From: Panagrolaimus kolymaensis
Lineage: Eukaryota > Nematoda > Chromadorea > Rhabditida > Panagrolaimidae
Length of the DNA stretch: 64,000 nt
Direction: 5' to 3'
Assembly (NCBI GenBank): GCA_028622995.1
Contig: JAJQJQ010000006.1
Coordinates: forward strand, 434,001-498,000
Positions 34,943 through 58,816 of the stretch are shown here, piece by piece (positions within the stretch are counted from its first letter, which is position 1; each line of letters starts with the position of its first letter). The position numbers and the translations under genes are program-made. The notes under the pieces were generated by a model. That model was not told where the DNA came from. It ran no database searches and saw only the letters and a program-made list of their open reading frames with translations.

Positions 34943-35703
34943 CAGAGCTGTCGAATTTCGAATTTCGAATCGAATTTCGAACCGAATTTCGAATCGAATT
35001 TCGAAATTCGAAGCTTCGAACGAATCGAATTTCGAAAAATACGAATTTCGAATCGAACATTCGAAATTCGTTTCGAAGAAATTCGAATTCGAATCGAACA
35101 TTCGAAATTCGATTCGAAGCTTTCGAATTTCGAATTTTTTCGAATCGGCGCCATTCCAATGGATTTGACTTTGGCGCAAGCTTTTTGGCGCCGAACTTTT
35201 TTGCTGCAAAAGCTCAACAGATTTGCAAAGTTTTTGTTTGACATTTGTTTAACAATTTTTCTTCTTCCTGTAAATTATGTCAGTTGCTAAAATTCAGTAG
35301 AAGATGTAATGATGGTTCGTAATCAAATGATCGTCGAAAAAGCTGAAAGAAATTTAGTTCCTGTGCCAAAAAATGAAAATGAAATTGTGGTCTTCGAAAG
35401 TGAAAGTGAAACAGAAGATTTTTAATTATTATTAATTGTTGATTGTTTTTTTTTATAAATCTTTGTTGTCTTTTGTTTTGTTGTTTTTTTTTATATAATA
35501 AAGTATTTTCAAAATTTTTTTTTATTATTAATGACTTCACTTTTTCGAAGATTCGATTCGATTTTTCGAATCGAAGCTTCGAAATTCGATTCGAAAGTTT
35601 CGAATTTCGAATCGAAACTTCGAAATTCGATTCGAAGAAATTCGAATTCGAATCGAAGCTTCGAAAGTTCGATTCGAAGATTTTCGAACATTCGACAGCA
35701 CTG
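34943..35703. mobile_element. 761-bp hAT-derived element with TTCGAA-rich arms
   Basis: Termini CAGAGCTGTCGAA and TTCGACAGCACTG are near-perfect inverted repeats. They are flanked by the 8-bp direct repeat GTCTCCAC (34,935-34,942 and 35,704-35,711), which identifies a hAT-type insertion. Both arms (34,955-35,150 and 35,545-35,697) are built from overlapping TTCGAA/AATCGAA words, a self-complementary simple repeat that accounts for open frames in many phases. The centre (35,160-35,540) is unique sequence and includes a short transposase-like tail described separately. Confidence 0.8.
35301..35424 (+). pseudogene. Possible C-terminal remnant of a hAT transposase
   Basis: Inside the hAT element, after an acceptor-like AAATTCAG, a frame reads VEDVMMVRNQMIVEKAERN and continues through an acidic tail (ESESETEDF) to TAA at 35,424. 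hAT transposases end shortly after their dimerisation domain with a segment of this general kind. Nothing upstream within the element matches the rest of a transposase, so this would be a leftover in a deletion derivative. The identification is tentative because it rests on about 40 residues. Confidence 0.4.
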
Positions 35704-44658: not shown

Positions 44659-45885
44659 ATGTCTAATGGGAAGAACAAGAAAAGGAAGATCGTCGAATCA
44701 ATCAATCCTGTTGAAGCTCCGAATATTAATAAATCACCTCAAAATGGATCAACAAGTATGTACACATATTATCATCTGTCATCGTTTCATTTGCATTTTA
44801 ATGTTGTTTTTCTAATTCTTTACTCTTATTTTTAATTTTAGGTAAAGAAAATAACCCTCCTCCTCCAAAGCTTGCAAAAATCATCCATCAAAAGCGTCAA
44901 AAGTTTTTAGACGAGCCGCAACCATTTGATTATTATGTTGTCATTGATTTTGAATGCACTTGTTGGAGAGACGACGAAGAAAGTAACCTTGGTGAAGCTG
45001 TTATGGGAAAAGAAAATGTTGAAACAAAGGAATTGCCAAAAAGAAAACTTCAAGAAATCATTGAATTTCCAGCTATTCTTGTCGATTCTAAGAAAGGACT
45101 TATTGTTGACACCTTCCAAGAATATGTTAAGCCTAAGCTTTATCCTAAACTTAGTGAATTTTGTACAAAATTGACTGGTAAGTTTAATTTGTTAAGCCAA
45201 ACCTAAATATCTGTAAACTTTTTCAGGAATAACTCAACATGTTGTGGATAATGGGAAATCTTTCCAAAAAGTGCTCAATCTCTTTCTTAAATGGTTAAAC
45301 AAACATGGTCTCAATGATCCTACAAAATATCTCATAATCACGGATGGAAGTTTTGATATTAGAGATTTCCTTAATGCTAGCTTGGTTATTCATAATCTTC
45401 CATTTCCACATCAACTTAGAACTTTTGCTGATCTCAAAATTTTTATTTAATCAATTGTATCCTCGAAAATCTGCAGCATTGATTAGAATGCTAAAATTGT
45501 TTAATATTGAATTTGTAGGACGACAACATTGTGGTCTTGATGATGCTAAGAATATTACTGAATTGGTTAAGAAAATGGCACGTAAAATGATTATTGTTCC
45601 TACACATCGAATGATTCCACTTGATTTCGTTGATGATGTAAGTTTCTTTGAAATGGTTTTGGTAGAAACGCAGTTTATTGTTGTAAAGCTTTTTCTCACT
45701 GTTTTAAAACCTTCCTTTTTCAGTACAAATATGCTATAGAAATCGAATTTTCCTGTGATCTTGATCGAAAAGCATTCGCTTATAGCCTGATATATGACGA
45801 GTATCTTTACAAAGATAAATCGTATCTTGAATGTGATGATTGTAAGCAAGGTAGCTGTAAAGCAGAAAAGTTTTACAAATTTTAA
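44659..45885 (+). CDS. ERI1-like DEDDh 3'-5' exoribonuclease, frame broken by one base
   Basis: Four exons: 44,659-44,755, 44,842-45,177, 45,227-45,637 and 45,724-45,885. Exo I is VVIDFECTCW (Asp68, Glu70), Exo II is in IITDGSFDIRDFL, Exo III is RQHCGLDDAKN, so all DEDDh residues are present. ERI1-family enzymes trim histone-mRNA and rRNA ends and degrade siRNAs. There is no SAP domain; the basic N-terminus (KNKKRK) could direct nuclear entry. The C-terminus carries a Cys cluster (ECDDCKQGSCK), also compatible with a CRN-4-like nuclease. In exon 3 the frame reaching Exo II hits TAA at about 45,448, while the frame encoding Exo III overlaps it one base off. The exon lengths sum to 3n+1, consistent with one extra base in the AAAATTTTT tract at 45,436-45,444. 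The final exon and AATAAA at 45,927 look normal, so an assembly error or a recent lesion is likely. Confidence 0.8.
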
Positions 45886-47094
45886 CTTTGTTTATTTTTA
45901 TGTTTCTGATTTTTTGTTGTTGTTTGAATAAACATTTTTGAATGTTTCCATAAAATTTGTCTCTTTACCAATAGCAAGCATAATGGGTGGAAGTAAACCA
46001 TGAAAAGCACTACGAATAAACTGAATTTCAACTTTTTTTGATTATTCCATTTTTATCGGTTGCCATTTCAAGAATAAAGAGTTTATGTGGAAATCGATGC
46101 CATTCTTTTACCCATATAATAACAACGAGTAAGTTTAATGACCAAAAAAAAAGAAGATAAATTCTCGTAAAAAAATTTCATAATAAAATGGAAGCAATGA
46201 TTGTTAAAGAATGTTTGCACAATTAATAAGAATGAAAAAATGCAATCGAAGCAAACACTCTAACATCGTCGTCATTGATTTTGAATGTCGTTGTTGGTTC
46301 GTCTTTTTTCTGTTAACATCTCTTTTTTAGTTAGTTGTCCTATTTCGTTAAAAACAAACAACAACAACGACAACACTAGTAACAACTATCAAAAAGGGAA
46401 GCCCTCCACTCCAATCAATCGTTTATGAAGATACATTCCTTTCTTTATTTCTTCTTTTTTTTCATCGTCCAACAACAAAAAGTACTAACAACCAACCAAG
46501 CAAGCAACCAGCCGATTTTTAAAGACAAAAAAAACACGAAAAGAAAAAAGTACATTCATTTTCATTGATTTATAAATTATATATATTTTAGTGTATGATG
46601 CTTGCTTTTACGTGTGTATAAAGAATTAAAAAATTAAATATATGTATGAGAGAGAAAAGTCCTTTAGAGATAAGAAAATGTATGAATCAATTTGCTTGCT
46701 TGGGAGGAGGCATTTTTGATTGAAAATGACTGTGCTTTTAGAGTATATTTTGTGATATTGTTATTTACCATAAGTTCGCTACTTTTTTCCCTTCAATTAT
46801 TTTTATTTAACAATATTTTTTTGCCATTCAAAAAAAATTATGAAATTATTGAACGATTTTTTTTCTTCATAAATTTTACTTTAAAAAAATTCAAACAGTT
46901 CCGTAAAGTTTTTTTCGTTGTGAAAGCCTTTCTTTCCCTTTCACAAACCTTCGCTCACTCTCTTTTTTTTGCTTTCAATGTCAAAAAACCCGATTTCGTA
47001 AACTCTTTTATTTTAGTATTTCAATTTTTTTTTAAATAAAGTTTTTTTAATTCAAAAAATAAAAGCGAGCTGCTTTTGCTGCTGATTTATAATT
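45886..47094. other. Intergenic with a short ERI1-like fragment
   Basis: AATAAA at 45,927 ends the upstream gene. At 46,268-46,300 a stretch translates as IVVIDFECRCW, matching the Exo I motif of the ERI1-like gene 1.3 kb upstream, but no other exon of a second copy is visible. Simple repeats (CAACAACGAC, CAAGCAAGCAACCAGC) follow. Confidence 0.5.
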
Positions 47095-48779
47095 ATGCCT
47101 GAAAATCCTTATTGCTCATCCGATCGATTGTTTCGATCTATCATCGAACAAGATGGAGTATTTTATCGATCTCAACAACGTGATGAAGCTGAATTTACTT
47201 TTGATGAAAAACATGAAATGCTGAAAGAATTATATTCTCGAAATCCTGCCATATTTCTTCAACGTTATCATTCTTTTATATCTCCATGTAAGTTGCTTTT
47301 TTAACCTTATTAACGATATTGGGAAGTGCTAAAATTATGTATTCTTGCTTTACACTTGTTTTTGTCTTCCGAAATATCCTTTTTCGAGAACCTTAAAAAA
47401 CTCCTCGTTTTCTTTTTTTGTTACTAAACTCCATAAAATTATAGCTTGTGTTCATATTTTCATCACCAAGCTCGCTCGCTTTTTTTGTATCGATTAGCTG
47501 ATTGACACTCATATTTGCTTCCTTTTTTAGGTTTCGTTGAATTATTTGATGAAAATGATTACGTCACAAATCATTATTTACAACTTATTTCTGCTCGAAT
47601 GGATGCTAAAATGCCTGGTTCACAAATGGATGTCAAAAATAAGAATCAACGATATTTACAACTTTTGAAGCTCAAAGAAGAAGGAGAATATTTTAGTAAT
47701 GAAAAGATGCGTGAACGTGATCCCATGTTATTTGATGCTATGGTTGGAAGGTTTCTTGATGATTCTGGTATGTACATATGTTTTTGTGCTGGCATTTAAA
47801 TGTGTGGAAGTTGTAAGAGCATATGCGATCCTTGCTTCTAATGCTGCTTTTGTGACTAAACCTTTCAATTTGTTACTCAAAGTTATAGCTTAACTAGCTT
47901 ATCATAATAGCTTTAACAAGTTCAAATTGCTTCCATTTTTGCCATTCTCCCTCCCTTTTTGTTACATTTTTATATATTCACATATTTCGTTTCAGAAAAG
48001 CTTCAACTTCGTCCTACAGTGGATCGCCCAGAAGGTTCTTGGTCACAAACGATGGAACAATTTGAAGATGAAACCAAAATTTCTCATCGCCGTAAACGTC
48101 AACTTCAAAATGAATGGTCGTTGCCATGTAATTCAGTATGTTTGTTTCCTTTCTCTCTTTTCTTTTTTCACCAACCTAATTGGCACCTTTTTATCTTTCC
48201 TTTTTTTAGAAAGAAACTGCAAGATTTATGTCACATGCTGGTGCAAGAATTACTAGTTTGGATGATTTAGAAACTATTGAAGGCTTGAACGAATGTGATG
48301 AAGAAGCTTTACGTTCAACATATCCAAGGCATTGCTCCAAAGGTGATATCGATTCAATTGTAAAGAAGTTTCGAAAGACTAATGTTAAAAATGAAGGTTA
48401 GTTTCTAAACGACTTGTATATGTAAAAAGTTAAAATGATTATGTTTTTAGAAAATACAACATCGTCTAAAGCTTGGGGCGACATTGATGGAACTTCTACG
48501 GGTGTATCTCAACTTTCAAAACAAGAAGATGAAGATGATGATATCCGTTTTGGAAGAAATTTTGGTGAAATGGATGACGATGAAGTGATAGCAGCTGCTG
48601 CCGAAGATGCTCATGAATATCCTCAAGAACTTATGAGAACTGAATTGGTTTCACTGATGGAGCAACGATTTTTATCTGGAGAAGACGCCGAATTTTATGA
48701 TTATGAATCTCATGATGCAGCAATGGACAAAATACGTGAAAGAGATTTAGAAGATGCTTATTTTGATGATGTTGAATAA
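47095..48779 (+). CDS. CCDC97: CCDC97 (DUF2052) homologue
   Basis: Five exons (47,095-47,287, 47,531-47,767, 47,996-48,135, 48,210-48,396, 48,451-48,779) give 361 residues in frame. The order of features follows the CCDC97 family: an N-terminal YSRNPAIFLQRYHSFI segment, a central DENDYVTNHYL region, NEKMRERDPMLFDAMVGRFL, then an acidic stretch and the diagnostic C-terminal block LMEQRFLSGEDAEFYDYE (about residues 318-338). In mammals CCDC97 is linked to the SF3B/U2 part of the spliceosome; a nuclear role here is inferred from that. No special regulation is visible. The start codon is the only ATG consistent with the first exon. Confidence 0.85.
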
Positions 48780-49366: not shown

Positions 49367-50433
49367 ATGGGTGATTACGCTACTAATGGTGATAATAGCC
49401 TCAAATGGCTCTACGTTGGTGAAGACAATAAAATCTATGGTATGTTTATCTTTTCATGTTTGGTAACATCGTACACATTCGTTCGGGAGGATTTACAACT
49501 TTAAAGCTTGTAGCGATGAAGAAAAACTAAATTTGCTTTCTTTTTAAGCTCTGTACAATAATTATAACTTTAATAATGCTCCATTTTCTTACAAAATACT
49601 TTAATCTCTTTATTTTTTAGGTCATTTCACTAGTACCGACATGCAAAAATGGTATACAACTGGATACTTTGGTGATCGTCAATTGATTAAAAGTACTGAA
49701 GATGATGACTTCCATAGTCTTCGTGATTATGTCAACATGTGCAATGGTTCACCATTCCTTTCTGATGGATATTCATCATATAATCAAGCTGAATTATATG
49801 ATGGAATTCAACGCCAACAAACAACTCCAATTCCAATGAATCTTCCAATGGCTCAACAAATGATGATTCCACCAAATGTCTCTTCTCAAGGTTATGCTCC
49901 ATCACTTTTTATCAATCCTAATTCAGCAAACATGGCAAATTATTCATATCCTTTATTGATGGTACCACCTGGTATGGGAACGTATGATGAAAGTCAAATT
50001 GCATATCAACAAGAAAGTTATGGTATTAATGAACGTGATAATCCATCTTCCTCTTCTGTTAGTGAAACACCTGATAGTGAACGATGCTTACATGTAAGAT
50101 AACTTTACTTTTGTTAGTTTGCTTTACTAACTCTTCTGTTTTTTTTAGATGATGGAAGATATGCGAGTTACAATGCAAACCTTTGATAAATCTGTTAGCA
50201 CTGAAGATGCTCCATGGCTTGCTCGAAAAGTTGATGCAGCAACTGATGCACATGTTTTTGATTCAAATCTTGTTGATTCTTTTGCACAAACAGTTCCTCT
50301 AACTGTATGTTTTTTCCCTTCAAATATTCTTTACAATAATTTTTATTTATGCTTTCAGATTCGTGCAAATAACGCTGGTCGTATTCTCAAAGAAATTACT
50401 GGTATCCCGTACAATGTTACTGGACGCTATTGA
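49367..50433 (+). CDS. GYF-domain protein
   Basis: Four exons (49,367-49,439, 49,621-50,093, 50,149-50,304, 50,359-50,433) give 258 residues in frame. Residues 14-47 form a GYF domain: WLYVGEDNKIYGHF, then DMQKW and GYFGDRQLI. The central Pro of the usual GPF is His here. GYF domains bind Pro-rich peptides and occur in GIGYF-type translational repressors and CD2BP2-type splicing factors. The rest (residues 48-190) is Gln/Pro/Met/Ser-rich and probably disordered, and the C-terminal 70 residues are helical-looking without a known domain. The protein is much shorter than GIGYF proteins, so orthology is open. Confidence 0.8.
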
Positions 50434-52133
50434 AAAGCATCGTCACTCATCAATGGTTTCTTCATTTGTTTCATAGTTTTATAATACCTACGTTTTAATG
50501 TTGTTATGTTTATTATCTTTTTGCTTCTTTCTATTGTTTCATTTTTTCAACCATTGGGAAAACGGTTATATTGTATTGTAGTAGGTACACCTTTTTGTAA
50601 CTCCATACTTGGCATATTGTAGTTTATTCTTCCTTTCATTCACCTTTTTTTTATTGTATGTAATTAACCTGTGCCTTTCTATTGTCTTTTTGAACTTTCC
50701 TCGACCCTTTTTCTTTTGTAAAGGCTCAAATTTTTGTCAAGCTTAATATTTGTTTATTATCTTGCTTCACATTGTTCTTGTTCTTTTGTTAAATAATTTG
50801 TTTATATCACATCTTTCTTGTTGTTCAGTTCCTGTGAAAAAAAAAAATTATTTTGTAAAATTTTGTAAACTATAGTCTATTATTATTAAAAAAATATGGT
50901 ATCCTTTGATGAACCTATTTGTTTTTTCTGATATTATAAATCTTTTTTGGTTTTTTCTTTGTTTAGTAAGGATAAAATAATTTTTTGTATCCCCAAAGCG
51001 AATAACACACGATCGGCGCATAACTGGCAAATGCATAGTTTCATTGAAAGCGAAAAAAAAAGTTGTTAAATAAAAGCAAAAAGACAGACAGTAATTTTAT
51101 GTTTATCTTTGCTCAAAATCTAATAAAAGCACTCCAATAATTAACTCAAGCAAAGTAACATTAAAATCTGTTTTCGAACTTTCTTGACGAGTTTATAACA
51201 AACTTTATGAGATGAAGCAACAACACAAATAAAATTATCAACTTTTAACGCCGTATTTTGGCTTATGGAAATAATCATTATGCTTCTTTTATTTTTGACT
51301 CTTTCTGCATGCAATTCTTGGAAGCTTCAACAGAAGCTTGTGCTTATAAAGGTGACAAAAAAAAAAGATTTTTGATACACAGTTAAAGGACGACTACACT
51401 TTCTGTTTTTTTCAAATTGTTTCAAACGAACCGCGGTTCTGTCCCCAAGTGGTAAAGTGCTTTGAACATCGAAAAACCGTAATGCTACAGTAATTTGGAA
51501 GTGAGATATTACTGTAGCATTACGGTTTTTCGATGTTCAAAGCACTTTACCACTTGGGGACAGAACCGCGGTTCGTTTGAAACAATTTGAAAAAAACAGA
51601 AAGTGTAGTCGTCCTTTAAAGGTAATGAAAAAACCAAACATAAACAAACCACCAAAATTGAAGGATGTGATTCATGATCTTATCAACTCCACTTTCATTT
51701 GGTTGTTGTTTCACAGCTTCACAATATTAGAAAATGAGAAGTTTCAATAAACAAAGTTAATTTTAAGTTTACAAACTTTGATACCAAAAAGTATGCCTCA
51801 TATTTTTTAACTTTTAAAATCTCTGCTCATAATCAAGGTTCTAGCAACGTTTACACATTTTGTTCACTCATCATTACTGTTTTCTTTTTCTGTTAAATTT
51901 CGATATTAATAAATCTTCAAAAGATTCAAGACACAATAAACTACATACATACAATAAAATGTGTTAAAGCAAAGTTTATTGAAACAAACGTACAAAACTA
52001 TATAAATGAAAAATGTACATAAAAACAAATACACGTTATTTACTTGAAGATAATGTTGAAAATATTCACAAATTTTTTGTTCAATTCTTACGAGAATATG
52101 AGAAAATCAGATTGTTTGGGAGTCCATTGTTCT
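50434..52133. other. Convergent intergenic region with a foldback element
   Basis: Lies between the 3' ends of the GYF gene (+) and the Bro1-Josephin gene (-). A/T-rich, no exon recognised. It contains the TTAA-flanked palindrome at 51,383-51,619. Confidence 0.5.
51383..51619. mobile_element. 237-bp near-perfect palindrome flanked by TTAA (piggyBac-like MITE)
   Basis: Arms of about 110 bp (from AGGACGACTACACTTTCTG on the left to its complement on the right) match almost base for base around a 13-bp loop near 51,498-51,510. TTAA lies at both ends (51,383-51,386 and 51,616-51,619), the target duplication of piggyBac transposons. The arms are unusually G+C-rich for the region. The high arm identity suggests a recent insertion. 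There is no coding capacity. Confidence 0.75.
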
Positions 52134-54490
52134 TTAGCTACTTGATCGTCTATTGTATACAGCTAATTCACCTTTCGTTGAAGCATTATCAGCAGCACAA
52201 ATTCCAAGTTCTCCTTCAACTACATATATCGATGAATGATTTTCAATTAGCCATGCCAAATATGGTTGAAGTGATGAAGTAGCGACGTATTGTGGACCAT
52301 TTAAAAGTGAATTGAGAATAAACCACATATCACCGAATCGTCGAAGAGTAAACCAATGTTGAGTTTTGTTAATAATGAAAGCATGCGCATTTCTAAAAGT
52401 TAACCGAATAAAGAAACGACCAATGGGAAATGAAGATAACTTACTCAGGTTGAAACATATAATGAGTATAATTTGGTTTATTTATGTTCTCCAGATTCAA
52501 ATTTCGAGATAAAAGAGCCATTTGTAATACTTGTATTGAATAAAACCCAGATTCAGATCCATTTTCACTTCGAAATTTGTGTGATGGGATTTCAGCGAGT
52601 TCCATTTCTTGTTGATCCAATCTTTCAACAAAACGAGCAAAATGTGAAGCGTTGAATGCATGACTTTGAAGAAGCATATTCAATGCATGTTGACCACACA
52701 TTAAATCACGTTGCTAAAAAATGTAAGCATTAATAAAGCTTTCACTTGGAGGTTAAGTAAATTTCCATTGCAAAAATGAAACTTACTTTTTCAAAGTAAA
52801 TGGATTTTCTTCCTAATACTTCCCAACGGTCTTCTTCTTTTTTATTCCTATCACCCCCAGCAACATTGGAGGAATTTGAAGATGAAAATTTGTTGAGTCC
52901 TGAAATTTGGAATAAAGGTGATAAAAATAAGCATGAAAATCAACTGTATCATTACGTTGTTGAACATTCGTTGATTTTTGTTGAATTGATTCTTGGCGTT
53001 TTTCATGGTTCGAAACATCGTTAAAGGCATTTGAAAGAGTAAGTGATGCTATTTTGCTGAAAAATGAAGTTGGTTATTACAAAGATAATAAGGTAAAATA
53101 GTTAAACACTTACGTATCAATATCAGTAGGGTGTTCTGGATAATGACCATTTCCATTAGTGTCAACTGTTGCGATTTTGCCATTTTGGAACGCAGATAAG
53201 GCTTTATTGATTGAAAGAGAATCAAGTACTTCAAACAGATCCTTAAAGTTAGTTGATAAGTACCCTTCGATAGGAGTAGGCTTAACGGCAGCTTTCTTTT
53301 CTAATTCCGGAACATCTCGTATGGCAGGAACACGTTCGTACTAAAACATTAATAAAGGTAAAGCGAAATATCCCATTTAATGAAACTTACAATAAATTGA
53401 TTAGCTTTCATAATTTTTTGCAAATTTTTAGCTGCCTCACGTAAGATTGGAAAATGATCATCATACACAGAAGATTTCATTTGATTACGAAGTTGTACAG
53501 CTTCCATAACACGACAAATTTGTTCACCAGCTTTCCCTTCAATTTCGCAAAGTGTGGAAGCATGAAAGTGTGCAGAAGATTCAAGCCCTTTAGCTTTAGT
53601 TGAAACAGTGGTAATCCATTCTTTATCAAATATTCCTTTCGCCTCATTTTTTGCCAGCATTGAAAGAGCATCTTTATAAAATTGAGAACCTTGATTAGCT
53701 ATTTTGATGAGAACATTGATTTCCATGTTAGCTAAAAAAGTTTATGTCTAAATGAAATACATTAAAAAAAACTTACATCGCACTGCTTTCAAATAAGCAC
53801 ATTCTTGAGCTTGAGCAAGCATGATACATGACAGTATGGATAAGGTATAACTATTAAAATCAGGTGTTAGTTCATGTAAAGTCATATCAAAAATGTTTTC
53901 TTCAAGATATTTGAAAACACCAGAAGCTTTTTGAAACAATTTAGTTGCAATCTTGAGATGTTCTTCAGAATATGATTGATATGAAGCTATTATTGACATC
54001 ACAGCTCCACAATTGAAAAGGACACATACACGTTCAAAAGCACTGTCATCGATAGCTAAAATCCACCGAGGGTAAAAAGCAAGATAAAAGAATGAAAGTG
54101 AAAAACATACTCTCGTCCTTACGTTTATCAAAAGCATCCCGCCATTTGAAAGCTACAGTATTCAAATAAGGTGTCATAGGAAGCGCCTTTTGAATAGCAC
54201 AAAGTTGATCATAATACCTGAAAAGAAATACATAAGTACATATAAAGCAAACAATATTAACTATTTCCATACCTTTCAATCAAATGCAGCGATTGTTCCG
54301 TTTTATAGAAGTTTTGGTTATTACAGCATGCTTGATTTCTCATTTGGTCCAATTCTTTCAATGCATCCTCCACTTCCATTTGATGAAAAAGTTCTAAATC
54401 CATTGAATTGATAAATGGTCGAAGAGCTTTAACGAAATCAACATTATTGGTTTTCTTTAATGGCACAGCTAAGAATTTTACAGCAACCAT
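52134..54490 (-). CDS. Bro1 domain (ALIX-type) fused to Josephin (ataxin-3-type) deubiquitinase
   Basis: Nine exons on the minus strand: 54,490-54,273, 54,217-54,111, 54,055-53,777, 53,731-53,391, 53,340-53,114, 53,056-52,956, 52,899-52,787, 52,713-52,445 and 52,392-52,134. They keep phase throughout, giving 637 residues. Residues 1 to about 375 are a Bro1 domain close to ALIX/PDCD6IP (MVAVKFLAVPLKK, VCVLFNCGAV, SCIMLAQAQECAYLKAVR, then FIYERVP and TNFKDLFE). The ALIX V domain and Pro-rich tail are absent. After a linker, residues 457-637 are a Josephin domain: SIYFEKQRDLMCGQHALNML (Cys468), ESGFYSIQVL, QHWFTLRRFGDMWFILNSLL (His564, Asn579). The catalytic triad is complete and the His-Asn spacing equals that of human ataxin-3. 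No UIMs follow. The exon preceding the Cys exon has no in-frame ATG. Retention of the 56-nt sixth intron would stop at about residue 471, leaving Bro1 only. Likely role: ubiquitin removal at ESCRT sites. Confidence 0.85.
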
Positions 54491-58188: not shown

Positions 58189-58639
58189 CAGTGCTGGCGG
58201 TTTTCGGTTTTTCGGTTCGGTTTTCGGTGAACCGAATCGAACCGAAAATCGAAAACCGAAGTATTCCTGTTTTCGGTTCAAACCGATAAACCGAAAACCG
58301 AGAAACTTCGGTTTCGGTTCGGTGCACCGAATCGAACCGAAAAAACCGAATTCGTTTTTCATAGAAAAATGTATCTAGTTGTTATCCAAAGTGTTAGCAA
58401 ACATGCTAATAATGCATAAAAAGGCATTATTTAAGCAATACCTAATATTTTATCCCAAAAAATAACGATTTTGAATTTCAAACCGAACCGAAAACCGAAA
58501 AATTTTATAAACCGAAAAACCGAAAATCGAGGATTTCGGTTTTCGATTTAAACCGAAAAACCGAAAACCGATAAGCTTCGGTTTCGGTTCGGTTAACCGA
58601 AACCGAAAACCGAAGGATTTCGGTAAACCGCCAGCGCTG
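58189..58639. mobile_element. 451-bp hAT-derived element with AACCGAAA-rich arms
   Basis: Termini CAGTGCTGGCGGTTTTCGG and its near complement CCGCCAGCGCTG. Flanks are CATATAAC at 58,181-58,188 and 58,640-58,647, an 8-bp target duplication. Both arms consist of overlapping CGGTTTTCGG/ACCGAAAACCG words; the 100 bp around 58,370-58,470 is unique A/T-rich sequence. No transposase is present. The plan, simple self-complementary repeats behind CAG(T/C)GCTG ends, parallels the TTCGAA element at 34,943. Confidence 0.8.
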
Positions 58640-58647
58640 CATATAAC

Positions 58648-58816
58648 CAGCGCTGGCGGTTTTCGGTTTTTCGGTTCGGTTTTCGGTGAACCGAACCGAA
58701 CCGAAAATCGAAAAATTTTATAAACCGAAAAACCGAAAATCGAGGATTTCGGTTTTCGATTTAAACCGAAAAACCGAAAACCGATAAGCTTCGGTTTCGG
58801 TAAACCGCCAGCGCTG
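58648..58816. mobile_element. 169-bp copy of the same hAT element, directly adjacent
   Basis: Starts CAGCGCTGGCGG and ends CCGCCAGCGCTG, with CATATAAC on both sides (58,640-58,647 and 58,817-58,824). Its inner sequence repeats parts of the larger neighbour, including the block around 58,480-58,590. The shared middle CATATAAC means two elements and three copies of the same 8-bp repeat in a row. That fits a local duplication of element plus target site followed by internal deletion better than two independent insertions. Confidence 0.75.

Follow-up and report, generated by a model that had tools for sequence, protein, structure and literature searches.

A predicted nematode gene that joins an ALIX-derived Bro1 domain to an ataxin-3-type Josephin domain

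A gene in the 64-kb stretch of Panagrolaimus kolymaensis DNA analyzed here (the window) combines, as read from its sequence, an ALIX-derived Bro1 domain with an ataxin-3-type Josephin domain, and on balance its product is likely to bind ESCRT-III and to strip ubiquitin there. The coding fusion itself was confirmed as one continuous frame across predicted splice sites. What would be new is a likely ESCRT-directed deubiquitinase (DUB) with a Bro1 docking domain, which our protein and literature searches did not find in other DUBs. The first-pass annotation knew of no described protein with this domain pair, and a literature search, with most subscription papers outside its scope, showed none either; the available text of three papers (PMC4276913, PMC6925526, and PMC9599802) describes no Bro1-Josephin fusion. 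The available part of a Josephin survey covering 756 animal genomes calls the Josephin domain N-terminal (PMC10050893). Here, it is C-terminal, starting at residue 463.

Gene model and domain content

The gene runs from position 54490 to position 52134 on the minus strand, as do all of its features given below, and has nine exons separated by eight GT-AG introns of 45 to 73 nt. The joined exons comprise 1914 nt including the stop codon, corresponding to 637 codons without an internal stop. Nine exons keeping phase over 637 codons had been proposed in the first-pass annotation, and its exon ends, intron, and checked residue numbers were all correct. Exon 1 (54273..54490) opens with the ATG at 54490 and holds the start of the Bro1 domain; an acceptor-like TTTGTTTCAG, read by eye, ends 2 bases 5' of this ATG. 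Exon 2 (54111..54217), also Bro1, ends at the place of the missing lipid-binding loop of ALIX. A possible alternative exon 2 donor, GTAAGG (54122-54111, read by eye), is present in frame 12 nt 5' of the donor used, and its use would make the shrunken loop region even shorter. The Bro1 domain continues through exon 3 (53777..54055), with the CHMP4-groove segment AQAQECAYLKA close to the exon end, and exon 4 (53391..53731), with Val208 (53714-53712). It ends at residue 370 in exon 5 (53114..53340), where a degenerate, ALIX-derived V-domain stub begins that extends through exon 6 (52956..53056). Intron 6 (52900..52955; 56 nt, phase 1) links the ALIX-derived and the ataxin-3-derived halves. Exon 7 (52787..52899) encodes a linker, GDRNKKEEDRW (52823..52855), and the first residues of the ataxin-3 part, among them Leu453 (TTA, 52814..52816). 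The Josephin domain is encoded by exon 8 (52445..52713), with Gln463 (52713-52711) and Cys468 (52698-52696), and by exon 9 (52134..52392), with His564 (52358-52356), Asn579 (52313-52311), and the stop codon (52136-52134). A candidate poly(A) signal, AATAAA (51975..51980), lies about 150 nt past the stop.

When the protein was compared with Pfam at E values up to 0.001, BRO1 (PF03097; residues 6-370, E 1.7e-83) and Josephin (residues 463-610, E 3.9e-37) were the only two families found, both matches being far above chance; an NCBIfam search gave no match. In a comparison with PDB chains, residues 5-422 resembled human ALIX and residues 456-621 resembled ataxin-3-type chains. A JOSD-type origin of the Josephin half was rejected, as Josephin-2 matched with an E value of 0.0011 versus 2.1e-33 for an ataxin-3-like chain. 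The loss of the V domain, the Pro-rich tail, and the ubiquitin-interacting motifs (UIMs) claimed earlier was borne out: Pfam detected neither a V domain (PF13949) after Bro1 nor a UIM, and the protein ends after the Josephin domain with no Pro-rich or other C-terminal tail. Four V-domain queries found no V domain in the 64-kb window either (E 0.42 at best), and an MIT domain as in USP8 was absent from the Pfam result. The sequence past the stop was also compared in other frames with ataxin-3 tails to look for a remnant, and this idea was rejected, since 463 to 1738 of 2000 shuffles equaled the score for all 6 of the 6 relatives tried.

The catalytic residues of the Josephin half were all intact. 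Gln9, Cys14, His119, and Asn134 of ataxin-3 correspond to Gln463, Cys468, His564, and Asn579 of the fusion, so the triad named in the first-pass annotation (Cys468, His564, and Asn579) stands, as does the oxyanion Gln463. The two ubiquitin sites, both in exon 8, differed from each other. Site 1 (Ile77/Gln78 in ataxin-3; Ile522/Gln523 here) was kept. At site 2, Tyr27 is replaced by Ala481 and Trp87 by Arg532, and Phe28 is kept as Phe482, such that two of the three aromatic residues are gone. For human ataxin-3, the accessible text of one study reports that all cleavage depends on site 1 and that K63 chains can be cleaved without site 2 (PMC2928749). With site 1 kept and site 2 changed, the fusion is predicted to cleave K63 chains in preference to K48 chains.

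Several other features were noted in the window. About 500 bases past the fusion stop is a perfect inverted repeat (51383-51619) with two 112-nt arms that are 100% complementary and 13 nt apart. Its 19-base end sequence occurs in the window only at its two ends, and judging from this structure, the repeat resembles a mobile element of the small hairpin kind. A GYF-domain gene adjoins the fusion gene in convergent orientation; its plus-strand open reading frame (ORF) segments cover 49620-50424, with the GYF domain in 49620-50084 (E 1.5e-8). Other plus-strand ORF segments (44841-48776) matched an RNase_T-type exonuclease (44841-45158 and 45223-45438) and a CCDC97-like protein (47509-47772 and 48465-48776). 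Two TTCGAA-rich tandem-repeat arrays, both with a row of 41-nt period, were found at 34951-35690, and a cluster of CGGTTTTCGG/CCGAAAACCG units, repeated and inverted, was found at 58211-58801. The window was scanned for tRNA genes and Rfam families without a match, and no homologous loci were confirmed in viral and genome contig collections.

Origin of the two halves and constraint on them

The nearest named relatives of the Bro1 half were nematode proteins. Among the comparison proteins, P0012 was about 58-59% identical, P0014, whose match covers 72% of the query part, was 53% identical, and P0013 was 51% identical, all three having a V domain. In a tree built from the Bro1 columns only, the fusion was sister to P0012 (support 97/90), with a branch of 0.65 versus 0.033 for P0012, a difference of about 20-fold. 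Such unequal branches suggest that ALIX was duplicated and that the normal copy was kept in the P0012 lineage. From these comparisons, the fusion is likely a fast-evolving chimeric duplicate of ALIX.

In a reading that we consider unlikely, yet the most serious rival, the fusion is real and its Bro1 half is a passenger: promoter, start codon, and a folded N-terminal part would have come from the ALIX copy, binding to ESCRT-III would be lost or unimportant, and the Josephin half would act in the cytosol or the nucleus like its relatives. The branch length fits this reading, as does the identity of only 59% to P0012 when P0012 and P0013 share 79%. The conservation of the Bro1 half was examined. 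Invariant residues were taken from 25 ALIX-type rows (P0013-P0040, leaving out P0040, the incomplete P0014, and P0039, a protein named rhophilin), with enough rows at 418 of 424 positions. Over residues 1-424, the fusion keeps 46/66 invariant residues and P0012 keeps 66/66. The losses were unevenly spread: 41/51 invariants were kept in residues 1-350 versus 5/15 in residues 351-424 (Fisher p 0.001). The Bro1 fold has thus been more constrained than the V-domain stub and less constrained than that of a normal ALIX. The 10/51 changed core invariants would suit a passenger, but the core invariants as a whole are kept far better than those of the stub, which speaks against one. In a second count, 46/66 invariants kept were set against identity to P0012 at 202/352 variable columns, and the contrast was modest. 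Neutral drift of P0012 to the same 59% identity produced 6-29 stops (mean, 14) in 300/300 runs, that is, at least 6 in every run; the real Bro1 half has 0. The frame has therefore not decayed, and its lack of stops counts against a passenger. Nevertheless, as far as these counts go, the long Bro1 branch and the 46/66 invariants are as compatible with relaxed constraint as with a new function.

Two sites of known importance in ALIX were compared next to these counts. The CHMP4-groove segment, AQAQECAYLKA..VLIKIAN, is still recognizable in the fusion, which again argues against a passenger. Val208 stands where human ALIX has Ile212, and the I212D mutation of ALIX is reported to disrupt CHMP4/ESCRT-III binding (PMC4860835 and PMC7054990, available text). 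However, this position is not diagnostic because it is Ala in 18/18 nematode-side ALIX rows (P0012-P0028 and P0030). The lipid-binding loop with Leu104/Phe105 is deleted in the fusion, as a passenger might have it. In the accessible portion of PMC7054990, this loop of ALIX is needed for binding of LBPA and for membrane association, and ALIX mutated in it stays cytosolic. The loop was present in 26/30 comparison rows and absent in 3 (P0016, P0036, and P0041), with P0014 not covering it; its absence in P0016 and P0036 perhaps comes from gene models. The first-pass annotation had taken the lost parts as pointing to a dedicated endosomal deubiquitinase. The coding fusion with an intact catalytic triad is supported, but "dedicated endosomal" is not secured because the LBPA-binding loop is deleted.

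In the Josephin tree, the fusion fell into a clade with P0042, P0043, P0044, and P0051 (100/100), and a long stem separates this clade from the remaining ataxin-3 rows. One member, P0051, belongs to Panagrolaimus sp. PS1159, a nematode of Tylenchina, and by these affinities the source of the fusion would probably be a panagrolaimid-like nematode. Within the clade, the sister grouping of the fusion and P0043 had weak support (81/5). This clade may be a separate nematode ataxin-3 paralogue. At the active site, its members read Met-Cys-Gly wherever their sequence extends that far, and nearly all other rows read Leu-Cys-Ala. UIM matches below the Pfam cut-off were present in P0042, P0044, and P0051, and none was found in P0043. 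The four relatives (P0042-P0044 and P0051, in this order) have Glu, Glu, Ala, and Glu at position 27 and Gln, Gln, Arg, and Gln at position 87. Among 29 rows taken as other nematodes, Phe, Trp, or Tyr occurs at position 87 in 27 and Tyr occurs at position 27 in 17; in the 88 remaining Josephin rows, Trp is found at position 87 in 88 and Tyr at position 27 in 87. The retention of Phe28 in the fusion and the presence of Tyr at position 27 in just 17/29 nematode-side rows count against the proposed mechanism. Since the site 2 changes are common to P0042-P0044 and P0051, they likely predate the fusion. The near-invariant Josephin columns were kept to a similar extent in the fusion (38/49) as in P0042 (39), P0043 (39), and P0044 (38), and P0051 kept 32/40.

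The idea that relatives might share the same architecture found no backing in the protein searches. Of the 11 Josephin matches (358 candidates), none had a Bro1 domain listed, and of the 30 Bro1 matches (4711 candidates), none had a Josephin domain listed and 30/30 had PF13949. Both of these searches were restricted to proteins of 350-1115 aa and to relatives sharing short exact words only. A third search, of proteins of 117-373 aa, a length that could not show fusions, passed 774 of 1582, of which the best 120 were listed. These results also bear on the possibility that the genome has no ALIX and/or no ataxin-3 besides the fusion, which would have replaced the ancestral genes and would cover both jobs. 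We regard this as very improbable, as the nearest Bro1 relative, P0012, has a very short branch and is a full ALIX including the V domain, and the fusion lacks the V domain and the tail, PF13949 being present in all 30 Bro1 matches.

The join between the two halves

The connection between the halves depends on the splicing of exons 6 and 7. Similarity to ALIX persists up to the last residues encoded by exon 6 and breaks off at the donor of that exon, which fits an ALIX exon left whole. The first-pass annotation had described a 56-nt intron with a proper donor and acceptor. The intron is indeed GT-AG and in phase 1, and its acceptor scored in the mid-range, but the donor, GTAATG, had the lowest score among the eight, each donor being scored against the remaining seven. 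We scanned 53056-52787 for GT..AG pairs at least 35 nt apart that keep exons 6 and 7 open and in frame, each such pair giving a fusion by construction. Seven were found, and the 52956/52899 join had the top score, followed by a join with its acceptor ending at 52813. If unspliced, the reading frame of exon 6 stays open through the intron and meets a stop in exon 7. An AATAAA is present inside exon 7 on the minus strand (52846-52841) and could permit a short Bro1-only transcript; intron 6 contains none.

A start codon for a separate Josephin protein was sought, and none was found in frame. As claimed earlier, the exon preceding the catalytic-Cys exon has no in-frame ATG. In residues 425-470, the sole Met is Met467, adjoining the catalytic Cys468, and residues 425-466 are without Met. 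P0042 and P0044 start with Met-Gly-(Lys/Asn)-Glu ahead of IYFEKQ, and that Met corresponds to Leu453 in the fusion. Therefore, the Josephin exons lack a usable start of their own, and a separate protein, with Met467 as the first available start, would lose the oxyanion Gln463. The linker was also informative. It was aligned with GDSSNKEEEERW of P0043, upstream of the Josephin Met of that protein, giving 8 identities over 19 ungapped positions, a score matched by 0/200,000 shuffles. This likeness suggests that the linker stretch was already translated in a common ancestor; the evidence is good but not final, given the high Lys and Glu content of the linker. P0043 was also considered as part of a fusion of its own; its ORF begins some 27 codons ahead of the linker, and this leading sequence, by eye, does not resemble ALIX.

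Two adjacent genes or an assembly join, with a truncated ALIX ending in or after exon 6 and an ataxin-3 gene starting near exon 7, is the least probable reading of all: the weak donor, the AATAAA at 52846, the stop met by the unspliced exon 6 frame, and the recorded MG(K/N)E starts of P0042 and P0044 would suit it, but intron 6 is just 56 nt without an AATAAA, exon 7 offers no Met, a Met467 start would drop Gln463, the linker resembles P0043, and an assembly error would need to hit splice sites of matching phase.

For the fusion, the following origin can be proposed. A copy of ALIX, truncated behind the Bro1 domain, would have landed 5' of a divergent ataxin-3 paralogue, and the chimera would have arisen when the donor of ALIX exon 6 was spliced to an acceptor preceding the Josephin exon. 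After that, the old Josephin start Met could have drifted to Leu.

Proposed function and comparison with known systems

In the proposed mechanism, the Bro1 domain would dock the product on CHMP4/Snf7, and the Josephin domain would deubiquitinate proteins held at ESCRT-III. Bro1 domains are reported to bind Snf7/CHMP4, and deubiquitinases are reported to act at ESCRT-III, in the available text of PMC6195633 and PMC6925526; the V domain of ALIX, in that of PMC7054990, binds ubiquitin. Placement by Bro1 would take over substrate choice from auxiliary chain binding, the simplest reading given that the chain-binding parts are dropped or weakened and the catalytic residues and the Bro1 core are kept. 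A fuller version, which we put forward tentatively and would not rate as an even chance, is that of a natural single-chain ESCRT-III deubiquitinase, in which the fusion would have hard-wired a link that other eukaryotes make by recruitment, as between Bro1 and Doa4 or HD-PTP and UBPY. The UIMs, site 2, and the V domain would have been traded for a CHMP4-binding domain, so that place, not chain type, would select substrates, and the ALIX donor may have captured a spliced-leader acceptor before a neighboring ataxin-3 paralogue.

The first-pass annotation had drawn an analogy with yeast Bro1, which recruits and activates Doa4. The placement part of the analogy survives, as the type of domain that binds Snf7/CHMP4 is kept. 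The activation part does not, because the fragment used to activate Doa4 in vitro was Bro1 388-844 (PMC5706963, available text), and the corresponding activating half is absent from the fusion. Thus, the Doa4 argument supports placement and not activation. The gene could serve as a natural experiment on whether the role of Bro1 in endosomal deubiquitination is mainly to place or to activate the enzyme, since it keeps an ESCRT-III-binding type of domain, lacks the Doa4-activating region, and has a catalytic fold unrelated to that of the USP enzymes. If the fusion works, placement of the enzyme would suffice without the activating region of Bro1. If the proposal is true, the gene would represent a compact ESCRT-III-directed Josephin enzyme and an example of gene fusion via splice-site capture; with Bro1 as a passenger, the gene would be a chimeric duplicate of an ordinary kind.

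Compared with known systems, the fusion shares with ALIX/PDCD6IP (Caenorhabditis elegans alx-1, a relative of yeast Bro1) the N-terminal Bro1 domain, a recognizable CHMP4-groove segment, and homology through residue 422, but it has a Josephin domain in place of the V domain and Pro-rich tail, and no lipid-binding loop. With ataxin-3 (ATXN3/atx-3, MJD family), it shares a Josephin domain with the equivalents of Gln9, Cys14, His119, and Asn134 and ubiquitin site 1; it differs in the C-terminal position of this domain, the lack of a UIM and tail, the changed site 2, and the lost start Met. With USP8/UBPY (yeast Doa4) and AMSH, the fusion would, if the proposed mechanism holds, share the placement of a deubiquitinase at ESCRT-III. 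However, these enzymes have other catalytic folds, and USP8 docks through its MIT domain and partners (PMC6925526, available text), whereas the fusion carries a Bro1 domain in the same chain. HD-PTP/PTPN23 likewise has a Bro1 domain and a catalytic-type domain in one chain, and in the available text of PMC6195633 and PMC6925526, it contacts UBPY, both having roles at ESCRT-III. In HD-PTP, however, the catalytic-type domain is of the phosphatase type and is accompanied by a coiled coil, and the DUB is a separate partner, whereas in the fusion, the Bro1 domain and a putative DUB would be parts of the same protein.
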